Below are positions 1 to 27,042 of a stretch of 36,332 bases of DNA, piece by piece (positions within the stretch are counted from its first letter, which is position 1; each line of letters begins with the position of its first letter). The DNA comes from Deltaproteobacteria bacterium (GTDB lineage: Bacteria > Desulfobacterota > Desulfuromonadia > Geobacterales > Pseudopelobacteraceae), in NCBI GenBank assembly GCA_021779135.1, contig JAJYBH010000019.1, positions 1 to 36,332 on the forward strand, written 5' to 3'. A model generated the notes under the pieces. That model was not told the origin of the DNA. It did not search any database and saw only the letters and a list, made by a program, of their open reading frames with translations. The position numbers were made by a program, and so were the translations under genes.

Positions 1-249
1 TCTTTTTGCGTTGTAGGAAAAACAAGAGTATTGCCGGAAAAATTTGCCACCGAGTATGAAAGCGCGGTGGCATTCGGTGTTGCATCAGAGGTCTCGGGAA
101 ACGAGCGTTACGGCGCCCTGGTGCTGCTCCTGGAAAAGTATTCGCCTGCGTTTATCGAGGCGGGCAAATCGTATATTGACCAGCAGGATCATGCCACAAA
201 GGTCGTCAAAATCGAAATTGAACATATCAGCGGGAAAGCTCGCAGATAA
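1..249 (+). CDS. Pyridoxamine 5'-phosphate oxidase-like / NimA-type flavoprotein, 3' end only
   Basis: The reading frame is open from base 1, so the gene begins outside the window; about 82 C-terminal residues are visible. The text VGKTRVLPEKF followed by YESAVAFG and an ERYGALVLLLEKYSP segment resembles the second half of the split-barrel flavin-nucleotide-binding family related to NimA and PNPOx. Members are small (about 150-170 residues) FMN or F420 binders; some reduce nitroimidazoles, but most have no known substrate. The visible part ends in a lysine/arginine-rich tail. It converges on the minus-strand methyltransferase gene with 65 bp between the two stops. The family call is from recognition of the C-terminal pattern only; no catalytic residue can be checked. 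Confidence 0.68.
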   Translation, partial: SFCVVGKTRVLPEKFATEYESAVAFGVASEVSGNERYGALVLLLEKYSPAFIEAGKSYIDQQDHATKVVKIEIEHISGKARR

Positions 250-314: not shown

Positions 315-1838
315 TCAATCCACCAGCAGCAGCCCGATATACTGGACAAAGTCATTGCTGTCGCGCAGGGGGGCGAGCGGGATGCCGCAGCTTGCCGCCA
401 GGGCGAAGACATCGCAGCCGCAGGCCTCCAGCGATGGACGGCGCTTTTCCGGGTGGCTGCAGCGCTCCGGCGGGCACTCCTCGCACCAGCAGCAGGGCCC
501 GCCGCTGAAGACCAGCGCCTTTGTGAAGCCGCCCAGAAAGGCCTCCTTCTCCAGCGCCAGCAGTGATTCCTGGAAATCCCCGAGCGGCGGTTGTCCGGCT
601 ACCAGCAGGGCGCGGGAGTAGCATCCCAGCAGCTCCTCAAAACCGGCCTGGTCCATGGCGTGGGGTGGGCAGCTCCAGCGAGTGCCGAACTGGGAGCAGC
701 CGTAATTGCACTTGGCCCGCACCCAGGCTTGGCTGCGGATGTCTGCCGGGTTGAGTTCGACGGCGGCGAAGAAACCATGGGAGAGGGCGTGGGTTTTCAG
801 GCCGAAGAGGGACCCGTTGCCCTGATAAGGCGCATTGCGGCTGGCGACCAGGGCCAGGGAAGAGGAGGGGAGCTCGATGACGGCGGTATGTCCGAAACCG
901 GCATCCTGCAGCAGGGCGGTGGTCTCGGCGGTGGAGTACGTTCGGCCGTTGAAGGTGTTGACCAGCATGTGCAGGTCGTACAGCGCGCCGAAGCTGTTGG
1001 CATCCCGGAAGAAGTCATGCACGATCAGCAGCCCGTCCTGCGCCAGCAGCTCTCCGGCCTGACCCAGCAGAACCGCATTTTCGTCCGGTCCGTAGCAGTG
1101 ACAGAGGTTGGAGAAGAGCAGCAGGTCGGCTCGGGCGCGATACCGCTCGACCAGCCCGGCCAGTTCCTTCCGCTCGAGGATGTTGCAGGGATACAGGGCC
1201 ATGTTTGCCGGAAGGGATTGTGCCGCCAGTACGTTGCAGACATCCGGCAGGTCGCAGGCGACGCCCTGCCACCCGGGATGGCTCGCCAGAAAAGAGCGCA
1301 GATAGGTGCCATCCCCGGCGCCGATGTCGATGATGGTACCCTGTTGCGGGAGCTGGGTGATCGCGACCCACAATTCCCCTGAGCGGACAACGGCGGCCTC
1401 GCCCATGGCCTGCTGGTAGAGCTGCAGCCGCTCCCGGTAGTGCTCCGGGGCCTGCTCGCTGGTCAACGCCCCCTGTCCCTCCCGCAGAACGGTCCCCAAC
1501 TGGTTCCAGTTCTCCATCAGGAGCGGTTCGAACTCCAGCACATGCCGCTGGCTGTCGGCACTGGTCCGGCTGAGATAACTCCGGCTGAAACGCGACAGGT
1601 AGAGTCGCCCGTCGTACTGTTCCAGCAGTCCGACGCCCACCAGCAGATCGATGAAGCGCCGCCCCTCCCCGGGTTGCAGGGAGGTTGCGGCCAGCAACTC
1701 ATCGAGGCTGCGCTCTCCGTCTTCCAGCAGATCAATGATGCCGCTGTTGACAGCCTCCACCATGACCCGGAACATGCGGTAGCCGCCGGTGAGGTCGCAG
1801 AAGGTGCGGTAGGAGTTGTCGGAGGGGAGAATCTTCAT
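315..1838 (-). CDS. BzaC-like O-methyltransferase fused to a DUF2284 Cys-rich metal-binding domain
   Basis: The 507-residue protein has two halves. Residues 20-100 look like the winged-helix dimerisation domain of the acetylserotonin/O-demethylpuromycin O-methyltransferase family. An SAM-binding Rossmann domain follows, with motif I IDIGAGDG at 170-177, then DLPDV and a FSNLCHCYG strand. From about 355 the sequence changes to DUF2284, with CNYGC and SCPP (Cys 377, 381, 390) and a cluster GGPCCWCEECPPERC (Cys 449-460), probably binding a metal or Fe-S cluster. As last gene of a B12-riboswitch operon after bzaF, it is the natural candidate for methylating 5-hydroxybenzimidazole to 5-methoxybenzimidazole, as BzaC does. 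That role is inference. A longer start at 1895 is open, but its extra 19 residues are read from an interspersed repeat, so ATG 1838 (preceded by GGGA) is preferred. Confidence 0.75.
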   Translation of the reverse strand: MKILPSDNSYRTFCDLTGGYRMFRVMVEAVNSGIIDLLEDGERSLDELLAATSLQPGEGRRFIDLLVGVGLLEQYDGRLYLSRFSRSYLSRTSADSQRHVLEFEPLLMENWNQLGTVLREGQGALTSEQAPEHYRERLQLYQQAMGEAAVVRSGELWVAITQLPQQGTIIDIGAGDGTYLRSFLASHPGWQGVACDLPDVCNVLAAQSLPANMALYPCNILERKELAGLVERYRARADLLLFSNLCHCYGPDENAVLLGQAGELLAQDGLLIVHDFFRDANSFGALYDLHMLVNTFNGRTYSTAETTALLQDAGFGHTAVIELPSSSLALVASRNAPYQGNGSLFGLKTHALSHGFFAAVELNPADIRSQAWVRAKCNYGCSQFGTRWSCPPHAMDQAGFEELLGCYSRALLVAGQPPLGDFQESLLALEKEAFLGGFTKALVFSGGPCCWCEECPPERCSHPEKRRPSLEACGCDVFALAASCGIPLAPLRDSNDFVQYIGLLLVD

Positions 1839-1872
1839 GGTTGTCCCGTCATATCTATCAATAAAACCATTT

Positions 1873-1966
1873 GCCACAGAGAACACAGAGTTCACAGAGG
1901 GAAGTCTGAAACTGGCACCTTAAACATCTGACATTTTTCTCTGCGTTCTCTGTGACCTCTGTGGCA
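1873..1966. repeat. Palindromic CACAGAG-type interspersed repeat, copy 1
   Basis: The left arm 1873-1902 begins GCCACAGAGAACACAGAG and the right arm 1938-1966 ends CTCTGTGACCTCTGTGGC, its imperfect reverse complement. The arms enclose about 35 bp and fill the gap between bzaF and the methyltransferase gene. A second copy of the same design lies between cobT and cobS. The form is that of a REP/MITE-like element with no coding capacity of its own. In RNA it could fold into a long imperfect hairpin. Confidence 0.75.
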
Positions 1967-1979
1967 GGCGGAATTTCGT

Positions 1980-3290
1980 TCAGATTTTATCGCCCCTCAA
2001 ATCGCAGGCAAACAGTTTTCCCGCCCCGCGCGAGGCGCAGAAATCGCCGCACATGGTGCAGGTGTCTTCGTCTTCCGGGGTGCGGCTGGCGCGGATGGCG
2101 CGGGCGTCCTCCGGAAAGAGCGCCAGCTCGAACTGCTTTTCCCAGTCCAGGTCGCGACGGGCCTTGGACATCTCCCTGTCGCGCTCGCGTCCCTTTTCCG
2201 GGTACTTGTTCATGTCGCCGATGTAGGCGGCGATCTTGGCCGCCTTGACCCCCATGCGCACGTCTTCCTCGTTAGGCAGGGCCAGGTGCTCGGCCGGGGT
2301 GATGTAGCAGATCAGGTCGGCCCCGAAGCGGCTGGACTGGGCCGCGCCGATGGCGGAGGTGATATGGTCGAAGCCGGGGGCCACATCGGTGGTGATCGGT
2401 CCCAGCATGTAGTAGGGCGCTCCGCCGCTCATCCGCTTCTGCAGCTGGATGTTGCCCTCGATCTCGTCCAGCGGCACGTGTCCCGGTCCTTCCACCAGCA
2501 TCTGGCAGCCCATGTCGCGGCCGATCTCGGCCAGCTCGCAGTTGAAGATCAGCTCCTGGATCTGGGCCCGGTCCGATGAATCATGGATCGCCCCGGCCCT
2601 GAGGCCGTTGCCCAGCGAGAGCACGGTGTCGTATTTTTTGAGGATCGCGGCTACGCGGTCGAATTTCTCATAGAGCGGGTTTTCGCGCTTGTTGGCGATC
2701 ATCCAGGCCACCATCGAGACCCCGCCCTTGCTCACCAGGCCCCCGTAGCGGTAGCCCTGCTTGCGCAGGCGTTCGATAGTGCAGAGGTTGATGCCGCAGT
2801 GCACTGCCATGAAGGCCATGCCGTCGGCGCACTGCTGCTCGATCAGGTCGAAGAGCATCTCTTCATCCAGTTTGTTGGGATCGCCGTATTTGCGGGCCGC
2901 CTCGCAAAAGGCCTGGTAGAGCGGCACATTGCCGACTGGCAGATCCACGCTCGCGATCACCTCGCGCCGCACCCGGTCCAGGTCGCCCCCCACGGAGAGT
3001 TCCATCAGGGTGTCGGCCCCCGCTTCCTGGGCTGCCAGCGCTTTCCTGACCTCGGCGGCATAATCGACGATGTCCGAGGAGGTGCCGATGGAGGCGTTGA
3101 CCTTGGTGGAAAGTCCCTTGCCGATCCCGGCGATGCGGGCCGGTTTGCGGTTATGGTTCCAGGGGATGACGATCTTCCCTTCGGCCACCATGCGGCGGAT
3201 GTACTCGACCTCGAGTTTTTCGTTAACGGCGACGGTCTGCATCTGGGGGGTGATGATGCCCTGGCGGGCGGATTCAATCTGGGTCAGCAT
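1980..3290 (-). CDS. bzaF: ThiC-family radical SAM enzyme, probably 5-hydroxybenzimidazole synthase
   Basis: The 436-residue protein has ThiC-family architecture and the C-terminal cluster motif CTMCGDFC (Cys 411, 414, 418). This motif binds the [4Fe-4S] cluster that cleaves SAM. ThiC turns aminoimidazole ribotide (AIR) into the thiamin pyrimidine; the paralogue BzaF turns AIR into 5-hydroxybenzimidazole, the anaerobic precursor of the cobamide lower ligand. Sequence alone does not separate the two here. Context does: the gene sits in a B12-riboswitch operon with cobU, cobT, cobS and a BzaC-like methyltransferase, and no TPP riboswitch precedes it. Its length also fits short ThiC/BzaF proteins rather than the roughly 600-residue ThiC. 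ATG 3290 has a good AGGAG; an upstream ATG at 3368 would translate repeat DNA. Plain thiC remains the alternative. Confidence 0.8.
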   Translation of the reverse strand: MLTQIESARQGIITPQMQTVAVNEKLEVEYIRRMVAEGKIVIPWNHNRKPARIAGIGKGLSTKVNASIGTSSDIVDYAAEVRKALAAQEAGADTLMELSVGGDLDRVRREVIASVDLPVGNVPLYQAFCEAARKYGDPNKLDEEMLFDLIEQQCADGMAFMAVHCGINLCTIERLRKQGYRYGGLVSKGGVSMVAWMIANKRENPLYEKFDRVAAILKKYDTVLSLGNGLRAGAIHDSSDRAQIQELIFNCELAEIGRDMGCQMLVEGPGHVPLDEIEGNIQLQKRMSGGAPYYMLGPITTDVAPGFDHITSAIGAAQSSRFGADLICYITPAEHLALPNEEDVRMGVKAAKIAAYIGDMNKYPEKGRERDREMSKARRDLDWEKQFELALFPEDARAIRASRTPEDEDTCTMCGDFCASRGAGKLFACDLRGDKI

Positions 3291-3310
3291 GTGTTCTCCT
3301 TGTATGTTTA

Positions 3311-3406
3311 GCTTCCCCCTTTGCAAAGGGGGATTGAGGGGGATTTGCCTTTGAAGTTTCAGAAGCAAATCCCCCCTAGCCCCCCTTTTTCAAAGGGGGG
3401 AATTGA
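3311..3406. repeat. Palindromic CCCCCTTT/AAAGGGGG interspersed repeat
   Basis: The element is a nested palindrome. The left arm holds CCCCCTTTGCAAAGGGGG (3315-3332) and runs to GGGGGATTTGC; the right arm from 3364 reads GCAAATCCCCCC and holds CCCCCCTTTTTCAAAGGGGGG (about 3380-3400). The two arms are reverse complements apart from small differences. It fills the pabBC-bzaF gap and supplies the pabBC stop codon at 3390-3392, so it either inserted at the gene end or replaced the original terminus. It could act as a strong hairpin or partial terminator inside the operon. Confidence 0.75.
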
Positions 3407-5165
3407 GTATGCATTCCCGCCAGCCGCGCACCGAGTTGACCAGCCAGATCGTGTCGGCGGCCTGCAGGTCTGCCAGCCTCAGCACCGCCTCGCGCATCGC
3501 GCCGACCTCCAGCAGTTCCTCCCGCAGCACCCCCGGCAGCAGGCCGCACTCCAGCGCCGGTGTCAGCAGCTCACCCTTCAGCGAGATGACGATCGTGTTG
3601 TAGCTCCCCTCGGTAAGCTCACCCCGCTCATTCAGGAAGATGCAATCGTAACAGCCGGGGTGCGCCCGCAACTGTTCATCATAGAGCGCACGGCGGCTCG
3701 TCTTGTGGTACAGGAACGGGTCGGACGAATCAACCCGTTGCAGTGCGATCATGATCTTTGCGGCGTGTACGGCACGGTCCGTGGCGATGAGCGGCTGGGA
3801 AGCAATAGTTATGTTCCCGTCGGGTTCCAGCAGGACGCGTACTTTATGTACTCCGGTTAGACTGTGTCTAAACTCCCCAAGCCGATGGCGCAGGGCATCG
3901 CCATCAAACCTGAATCCAAAGTAGTCAGCCGAGCCGGACAGGCGCTGCAGATGCCGCTCCAAAAGCAGATAGCCTTGAGCGTCGAAGCGCAGCGACTCGA
4001 TCAGGCTGAACGCTTCACAGTCTCTGGTCAGAAAGGCGCTCTTGTCGAGACACTCGCGAAGCTCGGCGGCTGCGTCAGAATCCCAGATGATGCCGCTGCC
4101 GATGCCGATTTCGCCCTCTCCCGTCATCGTATCCATTACGACCGTGCGGATGGCCACGCTGAAGACAGCGTCCCGGCCGGGCGAGACATAACCGATGGCG
4201 CCGCAGTAGACCCCGCGCGGCTGCCCTTCCAGTTCCCGGATGATCTGCATGGTGCGCCGCTTGGGTGCCCCGGTGACAGAACCGCAGGGAAACAGCGCCC
4301 GGAAGATGTCGCACAGACCGGCCTCCGGCCTGATCCGCGCGGTGACCGTGGAGGTCATCTGGTGCACGGTCGGGTAGGTTTCGATATCAAAGAGCGCTGG
4401 CACCGCCACGCTGCCGGTTTCGGCTATGCGGGCCAGATCGTTGCGCACCAGATCGACGATCATCAGGTTCTCGGCCCGATCCTTGGTGCTGGCGGCCAGC
4501 AGCTCGCGCTGTCGTAGATCATCATCGGCGCGCGGTCTGCGCGGGGCGGTACCCTTCATCGGCCTCATCGTCAAGCGCTCTCCATTCAGAGCGAAAAACA
4601 GCTCCGGCGAGGCCGAGAGGATACGGTGCGTGCCGATGTCGAGCCAGGCGCAGAAGGGAGCCTGCTGGTTGCGGCACATCCTGCGGTAGAGCACAAAGGG
4701 GTCGCCGCTGATGCGGAAGCGCTGGCGGAGCGTGTAGTTGACCTGATAGGTCTCGCCGCGGGCGATGGCCTGGCGGATGTCGCCCACTGCGCCGATATAG
4801 TCCCTGGCGCTGATGGTCGGTTCTGGCGCTGAGACCTGGCAGTCGCCGGATGTGGCAGCGTTTGTCTCTCTGCTACAGTCAATTCGTTCGGCAAATACGG
4901 CGAACCAGACCAGCGGCAGTTCAGTTTTCCCGTTTACGGGCAGATCGGGGTTCAGTCCCGAGGCGGCTTCGTAGGAGATGAAACCGGCGGCGTGCCTGCC
5001 CCGTGCGACGGCCTGCTCTACCTTTGCCAGGGCAGCGGAAACTTGATTGGGTTCATCCGCCCGGATGATTGCCTCGCATTTGCTGAAACGGTAGGAGCTG
5101 GAGTTTGCCCCGCCGGCGAAGGATTCCAGCAATATGTCCGTCTGGTCCGGGTACGGGCTGCTCAC
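3390..5165 (-). CDS. pabBC: Fused aminodeoxychorismate synthase component I / aminodeoxychorismate lyase (PabB-PabC)
   Basis: The 591-residue protein joins the last steps of p-aminobenzoate synthesis for folate. PabB aminates chorismate and PabC removes pyruvate. The N-terminal part carries chorismate-binding motifs SASPELF (184-190), PMKGTAPRR (about 202-210) and PCGSVTGAPKRR (293-304). From about residue 383 a class-IV aminotransferase-like PabC domain starts, with YHKTSRRALYDE providing the likely PLP lysine. The PabA glutaminase subunit is not in the window. Translation starts at GTG 5163-5165, overlapping the cobS stop by four bases (GTGA), which suggests translational coupling. The last residues (about NSPL) and the stop are encoded by the neighbouring repeat, so the native C-terminus may have been altered. 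There is no obvious direct role in cobamide synthesis. Confidence 0.9.
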   Translation of the reverse strand: MSSPYPDQTDILLESFAGGANSSSYRFSKCEAIIRADEPNQVSAALAKVEQAVARGRHAAGFISYEAASGLNPDLPVNGKTELPLVWFAVFAERIDCSRETNAATSGDCQVSAPEPTISARDYIGAVGDIRQAIARGETYQVNYTLRQRFRISGDPFVLYRRMCRNQQAPFCAWLDIGTHRILSASPELFFALNGERLTMRPMKGTAPRRPRADDDLRQRELLAASTKDRAENLMIVDLVRNDLARIAETGSVAVPALFDIETYPTVHQMTSTVTARIRPEAGLCDIFRALFPCGSVTGAPKRRTMQIIRELEGQPRGVYCGAIGYVSPGRDAVFSVAIRTVVMDTMTGEGEIGIGSGIIWDSDAAAELRECLDKSAFLTRDCEAFSLIESLRFDAQGYLLLERHLQRLSGSADYFGFRFDGDALRHRLGEFRHSLTGVHKVRVLLEPDGNITIASQPLIATDRAVHAAKIMIALQRVDSSDPFLYHKTSRRALYDEQLRAHPGCYDCIFLNERGELTEGSYNTIVISLKGELLTPALECGLLPGVLREELLEVGAMREAVLRLADLQAADTIWLVNSVRGWRECILNSPL

Positions 5166-5902
5166 GGCTGATATCCCGCCGAAAATGCTATCAAGGCGAC
5201 TATTTCAGCGATTTCGCTGATGCAGCCGACGATATCGCCGGTCAGGCCGCCCAGGCGCTGCTGGAAGTAGCCCTTGATGATCAGGGTGACGGCAAAGACG
5301 GCGGTCAGGGCGATCATGCCCTTGAACGGCAGTAGTGCCAGGCAGGCGGCAACGGTGATGCAGAGCGCCATGAACAGATGTCTGGTGGCCATGCCCTGAA
5401 TGATGGTTGCTCCGAGGCCGTCCTGACGGGCATGCTGCGCCCCGCCCAAGGCCAGTACCTGGGCGAAGCGCCCCAGGGTCGGAAAGAGCAGCAGCGCCTG
5501 CCAGGTGATTCCGGACGGAACCACCAGCAGGGCCTGCCATTTCAGCAGCAGACCCAGCGCAAGGCCGGCTGCGCCCACTGCCCCGACATGGGAGTCCTTC
5601 ATAATTGCCAGGAAACGCTCCCGCGATCCCCGAGCCGCCAGGCCGTCACAGACATCGGCCAGACCGTCCAGATGCAGGGCACCGGTGACCGTAGCCAGGG
5701 CAGTGACCAGCAGGGCCGCGGTCAGTGAACGGTTCAGCCAGGGTGCGATCAGCCAGTTCAGGCCGAACAGCAGGCCGCCGATCGTCAGTCCGACCAACGG
5801 AAACCAGGCCGTGGCCCGCCCCAGATCCTCTTTCTGACAGCGGGTGTCAAAGGGGAGCGGGATGATGGTCAGGAACTGCATGGCGATCAGGTAGAGGCGC
5901 AT
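5162..5902 (-). CDS. cobS: Adenosylcobinamide-GDP ribazoletransferase (cobalamin 5'-phosphate synthase)
   Basis: This 246-residue polytopic inner-membrane protein joins adenosylcobinamide-GDP to alpha-ribazole (phosphate), the last assembly step of the cobamide. Recognisable family features are FPLVGLTIGGLLFGL near the N-terminus, the acidic ALHLDGLADVCDGL motif thought to bind the magnesium-diphosphate substrate, and KDSHVGAVGA after it. Several hydrophobic helices follow, and the length matches the usual 245-260. ATG 5902 begins MRLYLIAMQFLTIIPLP, the typical family start; the in-frame start at 5965 would add 21 residues translated from a CACAGAG repeat. The gene is separated from cobT by a repeat-filled gap and overlaps pabBC by 4 bp. 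Confidence 0.93.
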   Translation of the reverse strand: MRLYLIAMQFLTIIPLPFDTRCQKEDLGRATAWFPLVGLTIGGLLFGLNWLIAPWLNRSLTAALLVTALATVTGALHLDGLADVCDGLAARGSRERFLAIMKDSHVGAVGAAGLALGLLLKWQALLVVPSGITWQALLLFPTLGRFAQVLALGGAQHARQDGLGATIIQGMATRHLFMALCITVAACLALLPFKGMIALTAVFAVTLIIKGYFQQRLGGLTGDIVGCISEIAEIVALIAFSAGYQP

Positions 5903-5915
5903 AAAATCTTTCTTT

Positions 5916-6093
5916 GCCACAGAGGGCACAGAGAACACAGAGTAAACCGAAAATCTGATTGTCAAGATGGTGCGGATAAATCCAATTGAGTAAAGTGTTA
6001 GAGCTGATTTGATGTTGTTAGAATCGAGAATTCTTATGGTGAATCTATTAATGCTCCAGAGGTTTTCTCAGTGACCTCTGTGTCCTCTGTGGC
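5916..6093. repeat. Palindromic CACAGAG-type interspersed repeat, copy 2
   Basis: The left arm GCCACAGAGGGCACAGAG begins at 5916, and the right arm ending CTCTGTGTCCTCTGTGGC at 6093 is its reverse complement with few changes. The interior of about 120 bp is AT-richer and shows no gene. It fills most of the 203-bp gap between cobT and cobS. Arm sequence and orientation match copy 1 at 1873-1966, while the interiors differ in length and sequence, as expected for arms conserved by mobility or by structure. Confidence 0.75.
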
Positions 6094-6105
6094 AATAGCC
6101 GTTTG

Positions 6106-7155
6106 TCAATGTGACACCCCGGCCTGTTCGAAGGTGGTCATTTCCTTCAGCACCTTAACCCCGGCTTCGATGAGTCCCATGGCCAGGGCTGCGCCGGTGC
6201 CTTCTCCCAGTCTGAAATCCAGATCCAGGATCGGGCGGACGTCGATGCGCTCCAGCATGAAGCTGTGGCCGATCTCCACCGACTGGTGGGCGGCGAAGAT
6301 ATAATCGCGCACATTGGGATGCAGTTCCGAGGCGATCAGTGCCCCGGCGGTGGAGATGAAGCCATCGATGACCACCGGAATCGAGTTGGCGGCGCAGCCC
6401 AGCACCAGTCCGGCGATGGCGGCGATCTCCAGTCCGCCCACCTTGGCCAGCACGTCCAGCGGGTCGGTCCCGTCCGGCTTGTTCAGGGCCAATCCCTGCT
6501 CAATGACCTGGATCTTGTGCTCCAGGGCCTGGTCGTTGATGCCGGTGCCGCGATGGGTCAGATCACGGACGGACAGTCCTGATATAGCGGCGATGATGGC
6601 CGATGAGGGGGAGGTGTTGCCAATGCCCATCTCGCCGGTGCCGATCAGGCCAACTCCCTCGGCTTTGCACCGGTCGGCCAGTTCGACGCCGACCTGCAGG
6701 GCGGCCAGGGCCTCGTCACGGGTCATGGCCGGCCCTTTGGCGAAGTTCCGCGTGCCGCGCGAAATCTTGCGGTGGATCATGCCTTCGGTATTCCCGAAGT
6801 CATAATCAACGCCGACATCCACCACCCGTACCTCGGCCCCGACATGGCGGGCCAGTACGTTGACACCGGCGCCGCCGGCCAGGAAGTTGAAGACCATCTG
6901 GGAGGTGACTTCCTTGGGGTAGAGCGATACACCCTCTTCAACAATGCCATGGTCGCCGGCAAAGGTGTAGATGACCTTCTTGCCCAGGTCCGGTTCAAGC
7001 GAGCCGCTGATGGCGACAATGCGGCGGGCAAACTCCTCCAGCCGTCCCAGCGAGCCGGGTGGTTTGGTCTTGTTGTCCAGCCTGGTCTGGGCCTGTTCCA
7101 GCAGTTCCGAGTTTATTGGCTTGATGCGGGCCAGGGTGGATTGGATGATGTCCAT
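6106..7155 (-). CDS. cobT: Nicotinate-nucleotide:benzimidazole phosphoribosyltransferase
   Basis: The 349-residue enzyme transfers ribose phosphate from nicotinate mononucleotide to the lower-ligand base, giving the alpha-ribazole-type nucleotide used by CobS. The family landmarks are present: [11 protein letters not shown] (31-41), [25 protein letters not shown], and near the C-terminus the [10 protein letters not shown] segment carrying the catalytic glutamate. Length is typical. ATG 7155 has AAGGAG a few bases upstream and lies 10 bp after the cobU stop. With bzaF in the same operon, its likely in vivo substrate is 5-hydroxy- or 5-methoxybenzimidazole rather than only 5,6-dimethylbenzimidazole; that is inferred from context. 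Confidence 0.95.
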
Positions 7156-7165
7156 GTCAGGCTCC

Positions 7166-7699
7166 TTACTTCAGTTTAAGCGGTATCCCGCTTGCCACCA
7201 GCCAGGCCTCCGAGGCGGCTGCAGAGATGATCTGGTTGGCCTGTCCGGCGATGTCGCGGAACATTCGCGCAAGTCTGTTCTCCGGCACGATGCCCATGCC
7301 GACCTCATTGGAAACAATGATGACCGGGGTTTTCATGCCGCGAAGAGTTTCCGCCAGATTACGCACATCCTCCAAAATCCGCTCCTCTGTCTTTGCGCCG
7401 AGATATTCGTGGAGCATGAGCAGGTTCGACAGCCAGAGCGTCAGACAATCGATGAGGACCGCATTGCATGTCCCATCATGGTTTGCCAGTGTCTCTGCCA
7501 GTTGCAGTGGCTCCTCGATCGTCAGCCAGGCATCCCCGCGGCGTTGTTGATGTTTCAAGATGCGCTGGCCCATCTCGTCATCCAGTATCTGTGCTGTTGC
7601 CAGGTAACAGAGCGGAGCACCAAATTTGTGTGCCGTCTGCTCAGCAAACCTGCTCTTGCCGCTACGGGCGCCGCCGGTGATAAATATCGTACGGGACAT
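7166..7699 (-). CDS. cobU: Bifunctional adenosylcobinamide kinase / adenosylcobinamide-phosphate guanylyltransferase
   Basis: The 177-residue enzyme phosphorylates adenosylcobinamide and then adds GMP, making the adenosylcobinamide-GDP used by CobS. The N-terminal P-loop GGARSGKS (9-16) is intact, and the C-terminal [21 protein letters not shown] segment is the family signature. Length matches CobU/CobP (about 175-180). It is the first gene of the operon, following the B12 riboswitch and its terminator, and is preceded by GGAGAG. Repression by adenosylcobalamin is therefore expected. Confidence 0.95.
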
Positions 7700-7730
7700 A
7701 CGGTCTCTCCACGGTTGTTATGCAGAAATT

Positions 7731-7762
7731 AAAAAGCCCCTGTCCTGATCGGAAGGGGCTCG
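7731..7762 (-). terminator. Riboswitch-linked intrinsic terminator upstream of cobU
   Basis: On the minus strand the stem AGCCCC (complement of 7755-7760) pairs with GGGGCT (complement of 7735-7740) across a 14-nt loop and is followed directly by a run of T (7731-7735). It lies between the aptamer and the cobU ribosome-binding site. It is therefore the likely expression platform: ligand-bound aptamer, terminator formed, operon off. Confidence 0.75.
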
Positions 7763-7827
7763 AAATCGTGGGTGTTGGATGCACTCCGGTTCCGGCCCCT
7801 CGTTCCACGGAGGTCCCAAAACAGCAT

Positions 7828-8005
7828 CGGCATGGCAGGTTTCCTGGCTCGGGTATCGACCCTTCTTCGCGCCTTCCCGGGTAACCCCAGTGGCATGCTG
7901 CGAAGTCGGTACTCCCTTACAGTTGCGGGACAGCGAGGGATTTGCACCCTCTTCCCTTTTAACCGCACTCGCTACGAGTACGGCACCAGACCGGTAATAA
8001 CAGAT
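7828..8005 (-). promoter_or_regulatory. Cobalamin (B12) riboswitch aptamer
   Basis: Reading the minus strand, the segment contains GGTGCAAATCCCTCGC followed by a GTCCCGCAACTGTA core, a GCCACTGGGG stretch and finally the B12 box GCCAGGAAACCTGCC (complement of about 7832-7846). These are the conserved parts of the cobalamin riboswitch in the right order and spacing. The 5' end is placed by the predicted transcription start near 8005; the 3' boundary is approximate. It controls cobU-cobT-cobS-pabBC-bzaF and the methyltransferase gene. Confidence 0.92.
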
Positions 8006-8012
8006 TTCTTGC

Positions 8013-8041
8013 TTTGTAACAGCCCTCAACCCAAAAGTCAA
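8013..8041 (-). promoter_or_regulatory. Predicted sigma-70 promoter for the cobalamin operon
   Basis: On the minus strand TTGACT (complement of 8036-8041) is followed after exactly 17 bp by TACAAA (complement of 8013-8018). The predicted start, about 7 bases further, coincides with the 5' end of the riboswitch. It lies back to back with the groES promoter. Confidence 0.5.
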
Positions 8042-25440: not shown

Positions 25441-25473
25441 AAAAAATCCGGGCCTGTGAAGCCCGGATTTTTT
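25441..25473 (+). terminator. Intrinsic terminator after the NlpC/P60 gene
   Basis: AAAAAATCCGGGC pairs perfectly with GCCCGGATTTTTT across a short loop. Because of the flanking A and T tracts it works on both strands. It ends only 12 bp before the start codon of the radical SAM gene. Confidence 0.88.
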
Positions 25474-25485
25474 AGTATTGGTCGA

Positions 25486-27042
25486 ATGAAAATTGTACTT
25501 GCCTACATATCCGGGATGCCGGACCGTCGAGACCCTTTTATCAGCTTGCTTCCAACCGGGCTTTGTTCTCTTCATGCCTGCCTGAGAGCGGCTGGTTTCG
25601 ACACCGTCCTTGCAAATTTCTCAGGATGGACCAATGCTGACGTCAAACAACAACTCTCGGATCTGAAGCCCAACATAGTCGGTATAACCCAATGGACTCA
25701 CAACCGGTTTGCGGCCATGAATCTAGCAGGGCTTGTCCGTGTTGAACTACCCGATTGCTTTGTCATCATGGGAGGTGCCCACGCCACTTTCTGTCACGAT
25801 AAGGTGCTACAAGACGGCTCCCCGGTAGATTGTGTTGTCTTTGGCGAAGGTGAAGAAACACTTCTTGAGATTGTCCATCATTGTAATGAAGGGACGTCAT
25901 GGCGGGATGTCTTCGGCATTGCCTACCGTGTGCATGGACAAATTGTCAGCACACTCCCGCGATCTCCTGTGGGTAATCTTGACTCCCTGCCAATTGCTGT
26001 AAGCTTTTTGGAGCAGTCCGTAGGTGTAGATATTCAGTTACAGTCGGAATTCATTCTGACTGCCAGGGGTTGTCCGTCATCGTGCCATTTTTGCAGCTCA
26101 CCCCGATTCTGGCAACACAAGGTTCGGTTTCGTTCACCGGATAGAATTGTTGAAGAAATGGTATATATCCGGGACAGGTATGGTCTGATCTACTTTTCAT
26201 TGCGAGATGACACGTTTACCGCGGATCGAGCAAGGACTATAGAGTTTTGTCGCTTGCTTATTGAACGGCGGATCTACCTGCTGTGGAATTGCCAATCACG
26301 GGTCAACTCGTTAGACGAGGAGTTGCTTGTCTGGATGAAACGAGCAGGTTGCGAGTGTATCCAACTCGGTGTGGAATCAGGGTCCCAGAAGATTCTGTCC
26401 CAGCTCGGAAAAACGATTACACCGGCACAGGTCGAAATTGCAGCCGGACTAATTCGTCGTGTAGGCATCAATCTGTCAGTCTATCTGATCTCCGATGTCC
26501 CCGGTGAAACAGAAGATGATGTGCGACAGACAATTGATCTTATCAAGCGTATTCGTCCGGACGATGGTTATGTATCACCTCTGGCCTATTATCCTGGGAC
26601 TCGGAACTTTGATGAGGCAGTTGTCGCGGGACTCATTGACCGGAACATCTTTGAAGTGGATGACAAGGGAGCGGTTTATGCGGTTGGCAAACCAGGGCGT
26701 AATTCACGTAAGATCCTGCAATGGCTTGGTCGAGTTGCTCCTCACGATGCCCAGCAATTCAAGAGCCAGAAAGAGCTGTTAGGATACTGTTATGCTACAA
26801 ACGTGCTTGCAGGCGAGTTTTATCGACAACGTGAAGAATTCTACCTTGCAGAATGTGAGTTCAGGGAGATAGTTGAACGAGAGCCTGATAACTCATGGGG
26901 ATGGTATCTTCTTGGGGACTTATACGGTGAAATGGGAAAGAATAAGCAGGCCGGGGAGTGCTATCACGAGGTGTGCAGGATAATTCCTGAACATGAGCCG
27001 TCGCTGCAGGCTCTTAAAGCAAAAAAAAAGCGGGGCCATTAA
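25486..27042 (+). CDS. B12-binding-domain radical SAM protein with C-terminal TPR-like region
   Basis: The 518-residue protein has three parts. Residues 1-145 form a B12-binding-like Rossmann domain (KPNIVGITQWT, FVIMGGAHATF, VVFGEGEETLLEI). The radical SAM core starts near 190 with ARGCPSSCHFCSSP, the C-x3-C-x2-C cluster site, followed by LGVESGSQKIL and ISDVPGETEDDV. The tail (about 440-510) looks like TPR helices (YLAECEFREIVEREPDNSWGW and following). Relatives modify lipids, hopanoids, tetrapyrroles or RNA; I cannot name the substrate. ATG 25486 starts MKIVLAYI as in relatives; it lacks a Shine-Dalgarno and directly follows a terminator. The C-terminal Lys run and stop overlap the next terminator. 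Confidence 0.85.
   Translation: MKIVLAYISGMPDRRDPFISLLPTGLCSLHACLRAAGFDTVLANFSGWTNADVKQQLSDLKPNIVGITQWTHNRFAAMNLAGLVRVELPDCFVIMGGAHATFCHDKVLQDGSPVDCVVFGEGEETLLEIVHHCNEGTSWRDVFGIAYRVHGQIVSTLPRSPVGNLDSLPIAVSFLEQSVGVDIQLQSEFILTARGCPSSCHFCSSPRFWQHKVRFRSPDRIVEEMVYIRDRYGLIYFSLRDDTFTADRARTIEFCRLLIERRIYLLWNCQSRVNSLDEELLVWMKRAGCECIQLGVESGSQKILSQLGKTITPAQVEIAAGLIRRVGINLSVYLISDVPGETEDDVRQTIDLIKRIRPDDGYVSPLAYYPGTRNFDEAVVAGLIDRNIFEVDDKGAVYAVGKPGRNSRKILQWLGRVAPHDAQQFKSQKELLGYCYATNVLAGEFYRQREEFYLAECEFREIVEREPDNSWGWYLLGDLYGEMGKNKQAGECYHEVCRIIPEHEPSLQALKAKKKRGH

Follow-up and report, generated by a model that had tools for sequence, protein, structure and literature searches.

In the accessible text of one source (PMC8123684), Eubacterium limosum and Acetobacterium woodii carry a full bza operon and make cobalamin, Moorella thermoacetica has bzaA-bzaB-cobT-bzaC and makes the 5-methoxybenzimidazole cobamide ([5-OMeBza]cobamide), and Geobacter sulfurreducens, equipped with bzaF and cobT, produces the 5-hydroxybenzimidazole cobamide ([5-OHBza]cobamide); the BzaF of the latter converts aminoimidazole ribotide (AIR) to 5-hydroxybenzimidazole, as stated in the available part of another paper (PMC7726332). 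In a figure legend (PMC8620254), bzaD is given as 5-methoxybenzimidazole C-methyltransferase and bzaE as anaerobic dimethylbenzimidazole (DMB) synthase. The present analysis concerns an operon headed by a cobalamin (B12) riboswitch in a Deltaproteobacteria bacterium of the order Geobacterales (family Pseudopelobacteraceae; assembly GCA_021779135.1, contig JAJYBH010000019.1). The whole contig of 36,332 nucleotides (nt), hereafter the window, is contig C19 of a draft genome that consists of 221 contigs and is 98% complete. The operon probably encodes the anaerobic synthesis of a benzimidazole lower ligand by BzaF, BzaC and BzaE, without BzaD, along a pathway that would continue past 5-methoxybenzimidazole.

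A set of bza operons for comparison was collected by a GTDB genome scan, which gave 136 BzaE relatives, of which 80 were kept. Among them, Eubacterium callanderi, kin of E. limosum, has the full operon in the order bzaA-bzaB-cobT-bzaC-bzaD-bzaE (L175), with scores above the model cut-offs of 700 bits for BzaB (780) and 450 bits for BzaD (887). The window set shares with it a BzaC composed of a methyltransferase and a DUF2284 domain, and a BzaE in one operon with cobT; it differs in having BzaF in place of BzaA and BzaB, in the lack of BzaD, and in sequence, the median identity to the canonical sets being about 29% for BzaC and 31% for BzaE. Compared with G. sulfurreducens, which shares BzaF and cobT, the window set adds BzaC and BzaE.

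The ThiC-family gene of the operon is bzaF, whose product is predicted to make 5-hydroxybenzimidazole from AIR. In a 39-row tree of the family, the protein falls within a BzaF clade (16 rows, 100/100 support, stem 0.67) separate from ThiC, BzaA and BzaB, which also holds the ThiC-like genes that occur singly in bza operons without a BzaA/BzaB pair; two Moorella bza rows were left out of this tree, and the two bza rows of E. callanderi were identical as extracted. Phylogeny thus supports the assignment to BzaF made in the preliminary description of this DNA. The 16 BzaF rows and the 11 ThiC rows are fixed for different states at ten alignment positions, of which one is a gap; the CX2CX3C motif, at which one row (L199) has gaps, was dropped as a BzaF marker, since it is also present in the ThiC rows used here. 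Against the BzaB model TIGR04386 the protein reaches 548 bits, below the cut-off of 700, and its start was set at an ATG inside a longer open reading frame (ORF; 1980-3368). The genome contains two ThiC-family genes; the second one, on contig C218 (660 bits), lies inside the ThiC clade and is the true ThiC, so the window protein stands outside that clade in a genome that has a thiC elsewhere. A second thiC under a thiamine pyrophosphate (TPP) riboswitch had been proposed as something to look for: the gene was found, but no TPP riboswitch was detected on its 11-kb contig, which also bears CRISPR direct repeats (RF01322; L081 10194-10812). Across 141 genomes of the order, a BzaF-type gene is found in 112, the ThiC type only in 24, and no match at threshold in 5.

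The methyltransferase downstream of bzaF is a BzaC homologue, for which O-methylation of 5-hydroxybenzimidazole is predicted from homology, architecture and operon context; on the same grounds the earlier naming of a BzaC-like O-methyltransferase holds, although its C-terminal DUF2284 domain (PF10050, 120.8 bits) had been missed. The dimerisation domain PF08100 reaches 22.2 bits, below the cut-off of 25.6, no BzaC model scored in an NCBIfam scan of the protein, and the true start may be an ATG near 1838. The bzaC of E. callanderi, third from last in its operon, encodes 525 amino acids (aa) with the same two-domain architecture, and its alignment with the window protein (25% identity over 527 aligned residues) covers both domains. 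His266 (window numbering) is invariant in 93 of 93 aligned BzaC rows, and seven cysteines of DUF2284 are invariant in all 73 full-length rows. The predicted model of the window protein (mean predicted local distance difference test, pLDDT, 84.6) has as top structural match human N-acetylserotonin O-methyltransferase (ASMT), an enzyme that methylates a 5-hydroxyindole (Z 33.3, root-mean-square deviation (rmsd) 2.9, 323 residues); the methyltransferase RedM ties with it (Z 33.1) and is ranked first by Foldseek.

In relatives, bzaC is followed by a B12-binding radical S-adenosylmethionine (SAM) protein of about 500 aa. The one in relative G066, separated from bzaC by a gap of only 11 nt and 65% identical to that of the window genome, has domains PF02310 and PF04055. 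In the window genome, the first 149 nt of the window overlap the end of contig C115, and this stretch is found genome-wide at only these two contig ends; joining the contigs restores an antisense ORF of 153 aa, open across the junction. In the joined sequence bzaE starts 1,877 nt past the bzaC stop, and the bzaC-bzaE pair lies between bzaF and cobC. Two antisense ORFs stand between bzaC and bzaE (L212 1-1578, contig C115), one of them spanning the contig break; the second, of 242 aa, appears by eye to be a restriction-type protein. The preliminary description had reported a complete-looking branch ending at 5-hydroxy- or 5-methoxybenzimidazole, with BzaD and BzaE unseen. This was correct for the window itself, and BzaD remains below cut-off genome-wide, but on the far side of the contig break a BzaE homologue lies downstream of bzaC; because the contig ends after bzaC, the predicted end product was probably one step short.

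The B12-binding radical SAM protein of the order is a BzaE homologue, and its catalysis is predicted accordingly from its family. The protein of the window genome aligns with the BzaE family, its CxxxCxxC motif corresponding to Cys195, Cys199 and Cys202, which are kept in the 14 aligned rows of the order, the window genome's included. At 67 positions conserved in at least 93% of 68 BzaE rows, mostly from BzaD-bearing loci, the same residue is conserved in 14 order members; the three cysteines are among these positions. In a 95-row tree, all 92 BzaE-family rows split from 3 BzaD rows, BzaD being the only outgroup and the only other B12-radical SAM family included; the BzaD model gives 35.5 bits on the BzaE of G066 and 41.9 bits on that of the window genome. 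Of the 22 BzaE proteins of the order, 14 are held in this tree and 10 in a 40-row tree.

The association of BzaE with the two-domain BzaC is tight across the order. When BzaC is counted at 50% identity or more, weaker methyltransferase matches being left out, it is found in 28 of the 141 genomes; it is fused to DUF2284 in 23 of these, the fusion of G090 being split over two contigs and that of G078 cut by a contig end. BzaE occurs in 22 of the 141 genomes, the window genome included, that is in 22 of the 23 genomes with the fusion, and all 22 BzaE genomes have the fusion. In 21 of the 22 the two genes lie on one contig and on the same strand, with bzaE downstream (at most 300 nt apart in 12), and the remaining pair is that of the window genome, linked via the contig overlap. 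Among the 21 fusion genomes where bzaF was found, its distance from bzaC is at most 350 nt in 7 and at most 12 kb in 11.

No protein of the 23 fusion genomes passes the BzaD model (TIGR04385), the best score being 214 bits against a cut-off of 450, compared with 886 bits in E. callanderi and 673 bits in a Nitrospirae genome. In the window genome the best score is 200.5 bits, so that BzaD, by whose presence a complete DMB pathway would be recognised, is not found there at cut-off. The possibility that the match in question, on C85 (200 bits), is a hidden BzaD was rejected, because it meets the cut-off of the lipid-type model TIGR04072 (360.4 against 360); 20 of the 23 fusion genomes have a match in the range of about 180-214 bits, that of the window genome being the one classified. 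BluB is above cut-off in none of 25 genomes, namely the 22 with BzaE, Trichlorobacter lovleyi, G026 and Moorella stamsii. Another radical SAM gene of the window (25456-27042), with a tetratricopeptide repeat-like tail by eye, scores 116 bits with TIGR04385, far below the cut-off.

BzaE without BzaD is not confined to this order. After correction by tblastn, BzaD is lacking beside BzaE in 10 of 78 loci (the 80 kept minus two with a short BzaE): M. stamsii, Brocadiales/Planctomycetes-type loci and a Thermodesulfobacteriota-type group. When whole genomes were searched for BzaD, M. stamsii had no match at E <= 1e-30, and the scores for the genomes of L190 and L193 did not exceed 133 bits. Among the Brocadiales/Planctomycetes-type loci without BzaD, five have bzaF and bzaE, and four have a methyltransferase BzaC with a separate DUF2284 gene; in L193 (10454-14288), L171, L187 and L191 the two separate genes lie near bzaF and bzaE. 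M. stamsii (L131) has bzaA-bzaB-bzaC-bzaE, its BzaE, beside BzaC, being 66% identical to a Nitrospirae BzaE; it shares with the window set BzaC and BzaE without BzaD, and differs by having BzaA and BzaB and a BzaE placed in the canonical part of the tree. This case suggests a use for BzaE even where BzaD is lacking. For the BzaE proteins found with BzaF and without BzaD, in the order and elsewhere, a single origin is neither shown nor rejected by the approximately unbiased (AU) test (p 0.151).

The pathway may be outlined as follows. When adenosylcobamide is scarce, the riboswitch would permit expression of the operon; BzaF would convert AIR to 5-hydroxybenzimidazole, CobT would activate the base, and the ASMT-like domain of BzaC would O-methylate its 5-hydroxyl. 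BzaE would then act on the methoxy compound, a step less certain than the preceding ones, and CobU, CobS and CobC would complete the cobamide. Since bzaD C-methylates and bzaE makes DMB, the net change due to BzaE would be from 5-methoxy to 5-methyl, and because this is its known job, the likeliest base without BzaD would be 5-methylbenzimidazole, an end product that we propose only tentatively and that may well turn out otherwise. The canonical-group BzaE that M. stamsii retains in a genome lacking BzaD is an argument for such an activity. 5-Methylbenzimidazole is listed among natural lower ligands in the accessible text of PMC8123684; in the parts of the literature that were available, no biosynthetic genes are named for it. 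Among the papers listed in literature searches for the set bzaF-bzaC-bzaE without bzaD, none dealt with it, though the set may be included in a figure of PMC6461909, a source available in part, on gene sets without predicted structure.

Several observations weigh against this reading, and the divergence of BzaE is one of them. In the 40-row tree the 10 order rows group together with 100/100 support, and the stem of their clade is long (1.63 changes per column). The median identity of the order's BzaE to canonical BzaE is only the 31% given above, and 12 otherwise conserved positions are switched in the clade, among them R179 (to D), W220 (to R) and N283 (to D) in E. callanderi numbering; therefore, the substrate or the reaction may have changed. 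The BzaE of the order might have taken over the ring C-methylation that is the job of BzaD, or do both, giving 5-methoxy-6-methylbenzimidazole or DMB, hence true B12. This we consider unlikely, if by no means negligible: besides the long stem and the switched positions, it is favoured by the 95-row quick tree, in which the clade joins BzaD-bearing Desulfobacterota-type rows (SH-aLRT 90), but M. stamsii has a canonical-group BzaE and no BzaD, so that the loss of BzaD needs no changed BzaE, and the loci read, where not all neighbours are annotated, showed no further recognisable B12-radical SAM gene next to bzaC-bzaE. The divergence would also suit an operon that stops at 5-hydroxy- or 5-methoxybenzimidazole, with a BzaE homologue that is inactive or acts elsewhere, and so would the two antisense ORFs that split bzaC from bzaE in the window genome; moreover, a DUF2284-less BzaC without BzaE in five genomes (G005, G006, G008, G014 and T. 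lovleyi) suggests that a stop at the methoxy compound is possible. Nevertheless, 22 of 23 genomes retain BzaE next to bzaC or in its vicinity, and the radical SAM cysteines of BzaE are conserved in the 14 aligned rows, which makes such an early stop a poor candidate.

Other points concern linkage and the join itself. One of the 23 fusion genomes, G078, shows no BzaE, although the contig breaks off in its BzaC; two others, G100 (66% complete) and G119 (bzaC near the contig start), yielded no BzaF. Of the 21 genomes with bzaF, 10 have it unlinked to bzaC, and a search of six stretches with such unlinked pairs (L097, L105, L106, L108, L110 and L111) detected no cobalamin riboswitch. Thus, bzaC-bzaE behaves like a cassette of two genes, sometimes located outside the riboswitch operon. 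The lack of linkage in those 10 genomes could even mean that neither the methyltransferase nor the radical SAM protein is a lower-ligand enzyme and that the two came into the operon as a methylating pair of unrelated function; in G074 the pair is followed by a gene resembling Tim44/TimA (58 bits, where the cut-off is 80) and by recB. However, this explanation is highly improbable, other members of both families being found in bza operons of Firmicutes, Nitrospirae and Planctomycetes, and the pair being flanked by bzaF and cobC in the window genome. The join of C19 with C115, for its part, depends on 149 nt of a draft assembly, and no paper was found that names 5-methylbenzimidazole as the product of a pathway.

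For the operon read as a BzaF, BzaC and BzaE pathway, the distribution of DUF2284 hints that this domain serves the BzaE step. BzaE is present in none of the five genomes where DUF2284 is missing or decayed and in 22 of the 23 with the fusion (one-sided probability 6e-5, ignoring relatedness). The five DUF2284-less BzaC genomes, all without BzaE, are those just named, with a decayed remainder of the domain in T. lovleyi; because the other four form two pairs nested inside the fusion clade of the BzaC tree, about two losses of DUF2284 can be counted, plus that of T. lovleyi. This tree covers 23 of the 28 BzaC proteins of the order, T. lovleyi not being among them. A general rule that DUF2284 is needed for BzaE was rejected, since five Acetobacterium loci with BzaD and BzaE (L169, L177, L181, L185 and L188) have a BzaC of 350-359 aa without DUF2284. 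A model of the isolated domain (pLDDT 93.1) gives weak structural matches to QueG (5d6s; Z 6.6, rmsd 4.0, 127 aligned residues) and to other B12 or flavin proteins, such as a reductive dehalogenase (Z 6.3), nitroreductases and CblC (5.3); in Foldseek the best E is 0.015. DUF2284 has no sequence relative in the PDB, and hhalign against Escherichia coli QueG gave a probability of 0.4%, two unrelated proteins giving 0.2% and 0.1%; the likeness of the model to a corrinoid fold of the QueG/reductive dehalogenase/CblC type, without sequence support, can be taken as a lead only. The literature naming DUF2284 explains no function for it in the parts available. It is conceivable, yet on the doubtful side, that BzaF, BzaC and BzaE form a dedicated natural route to [5-methylbenzimidazolyl]cobamide in which DUF2284 is a corrinoid/Fe-S module serving the radical SAM step.

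The elements of the operon, all on the minus strand of the window, are collected in the table together with those of the adjoining contig. They follow one another as riboswitch, cobU, cobT, cobS, pabB-pabC fusion, bzaF and bzaC; Rfam and profile matches confirm the B12-riboswitch operon with cobU, cobT and cobS of the preliminary description. The riboswitch match covers the full model (1-189) and is the sole match in an Rfam scan of the window at gathering threshold; hence there is no TPP riboswitch in the window, in agreement with the earlier remark that the ThiC-family gene lacks one. A cobalamin riboswitch also lies 5' of cobU in G066 (L102 18108-18298, minus strand). The true start of cobS may be inside its ORF, because the TIGR00317 match begins at residue 28. 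Between cobS and bzaF, the PabB-PabC fusion (TIGR00553 386 bits, cut-off 328), missed earlier, is of a type known from p-aminobenzoate synthesis; it occurs in the corresponding cluster of G066, G067, G118, G120, G121 and G139, whereas those of G068, G074, G075, G117 and G026 contain no recognisable copy. A PabB/TrpE-like ORF follows bzaE in the Syntrophomonadaceae locus L126. De novo corrin synthesis is likely in the window genome, though not established, to judge from a gene truncated by the end of contig C95, of which a cbiD-like C-terminal part is present (76.8 bits against a cut-off of 200).

Table. Features of the lower-ligand operon in the window and on the overlapping contig C115.
Feature	Position	Strand	Evidence
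Overlap with C115 end	window 1-149	.	reverse complement of C115 1-149, 1 mismatch
bzaC, predicted O-methyltransferase (Dimerisation + Methyltransf_2) fused to DUF2284	window 315-1895	-	PF00891 36.0 bits, cut-off 22.3
bzaF, predicted 5-hydroxybenzimidazole synthase (ThiC family)	window 1980-3290	-	PF01964 602 bits
PabB-PabC fusion (aminodeoxychorismate synthase I + class IV aminotransferase)	window 3390-5165	-	PF00425 286 bits, PF01063 109 bits
cobS, adenosylcobinamide-GDP ribazoletransferase	window 5162-5965	-	TIGR00317 138 bits, cut-off 110
cobT, lower-ligand base phosphoribosyltransferase	window 6106-7155	-	TIGR03160 456 bits, cut-off 319
cobU, adenosylcobinamide kinase/guanylyltransferase	window 7166-7699	-	PF02283 214 bits; NF004469 209 bits, cut-off 161
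Cobalamin (B12) riboswitch aptamer	window 7817-8005	-	Rfam RF00174, 130 bits, gathering 31.5, E 1.2e-32
bzaE	C115 1713-3191	+	homology; same strand as bzaC once contigs joined
cobC	C115 3306-3914	+	TIGR03162 170 bits, cut-off 162.9; follows bzaE

A simpler set is found in T. lovleyi SZ, which belongs to the same family as the window genome and is placed in Geobacterales by NCBI. Its plasmid pGLOV01/pSZ77 carries cobT, bzaF and a methyltransferase gene side by side (L246 12755-16388, corresponding to NC_010815.1 30753-34386). The BzaF, named 5-hydroxybenzimidazole synthase BzaF in RefSeq, is 88% identical to that of the window, and the unnamed SAM methyltransferase is a BzaC homologue, 54.8% identical to residues 26-354 of the window BzaC; it differs from the latter in that its coding sequence of 344 aa lacks DUF2284, and T. 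lovleyi is not among the 22 BzaE genomes. BzaE was not found in it and BluB was not above cut-off, no BzaD search result being reported for this genome. Its BzaF and BzaC without BzaE predict a 5-methoxybenzimidazolyl cobamide, which is a kind of cobamide that Dehalococcoides can use. The genome paper describes the plasmid cobalamin genes, and its available text contains neither "lower ligand" nor "benzimidazol" (PMC3403914). According to the accessible parts of two reviews, T. lovleyi supports Dehalococcoides and G. sulfurreducens does not; both call the T. lovleyi cobamide cobalamin, one of them naming DMB, and both cite Yan 2012 (PMC11321594, PMC13390470). The prediction of a 5-methoxy base from the gene content is at odds with this assignment.

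Which microbes are able to use a given cobamide depends on its lower ligand, and bza gene sets now serve to predict cobamide structures, as described in the available part of PMC6461909; the recurrent set with BzaE and without BzaD has no obvious predicted product. The gene content of T. lovleyi makes testable why its cobamide, unlike that of G. sulfurreducens, supports Dehalococcoides. If the product of the set described here were 5-methylbenzimidazole, both the substrate range of BzaE and the rule that without BzaD there is no further change of the ring would need revision.

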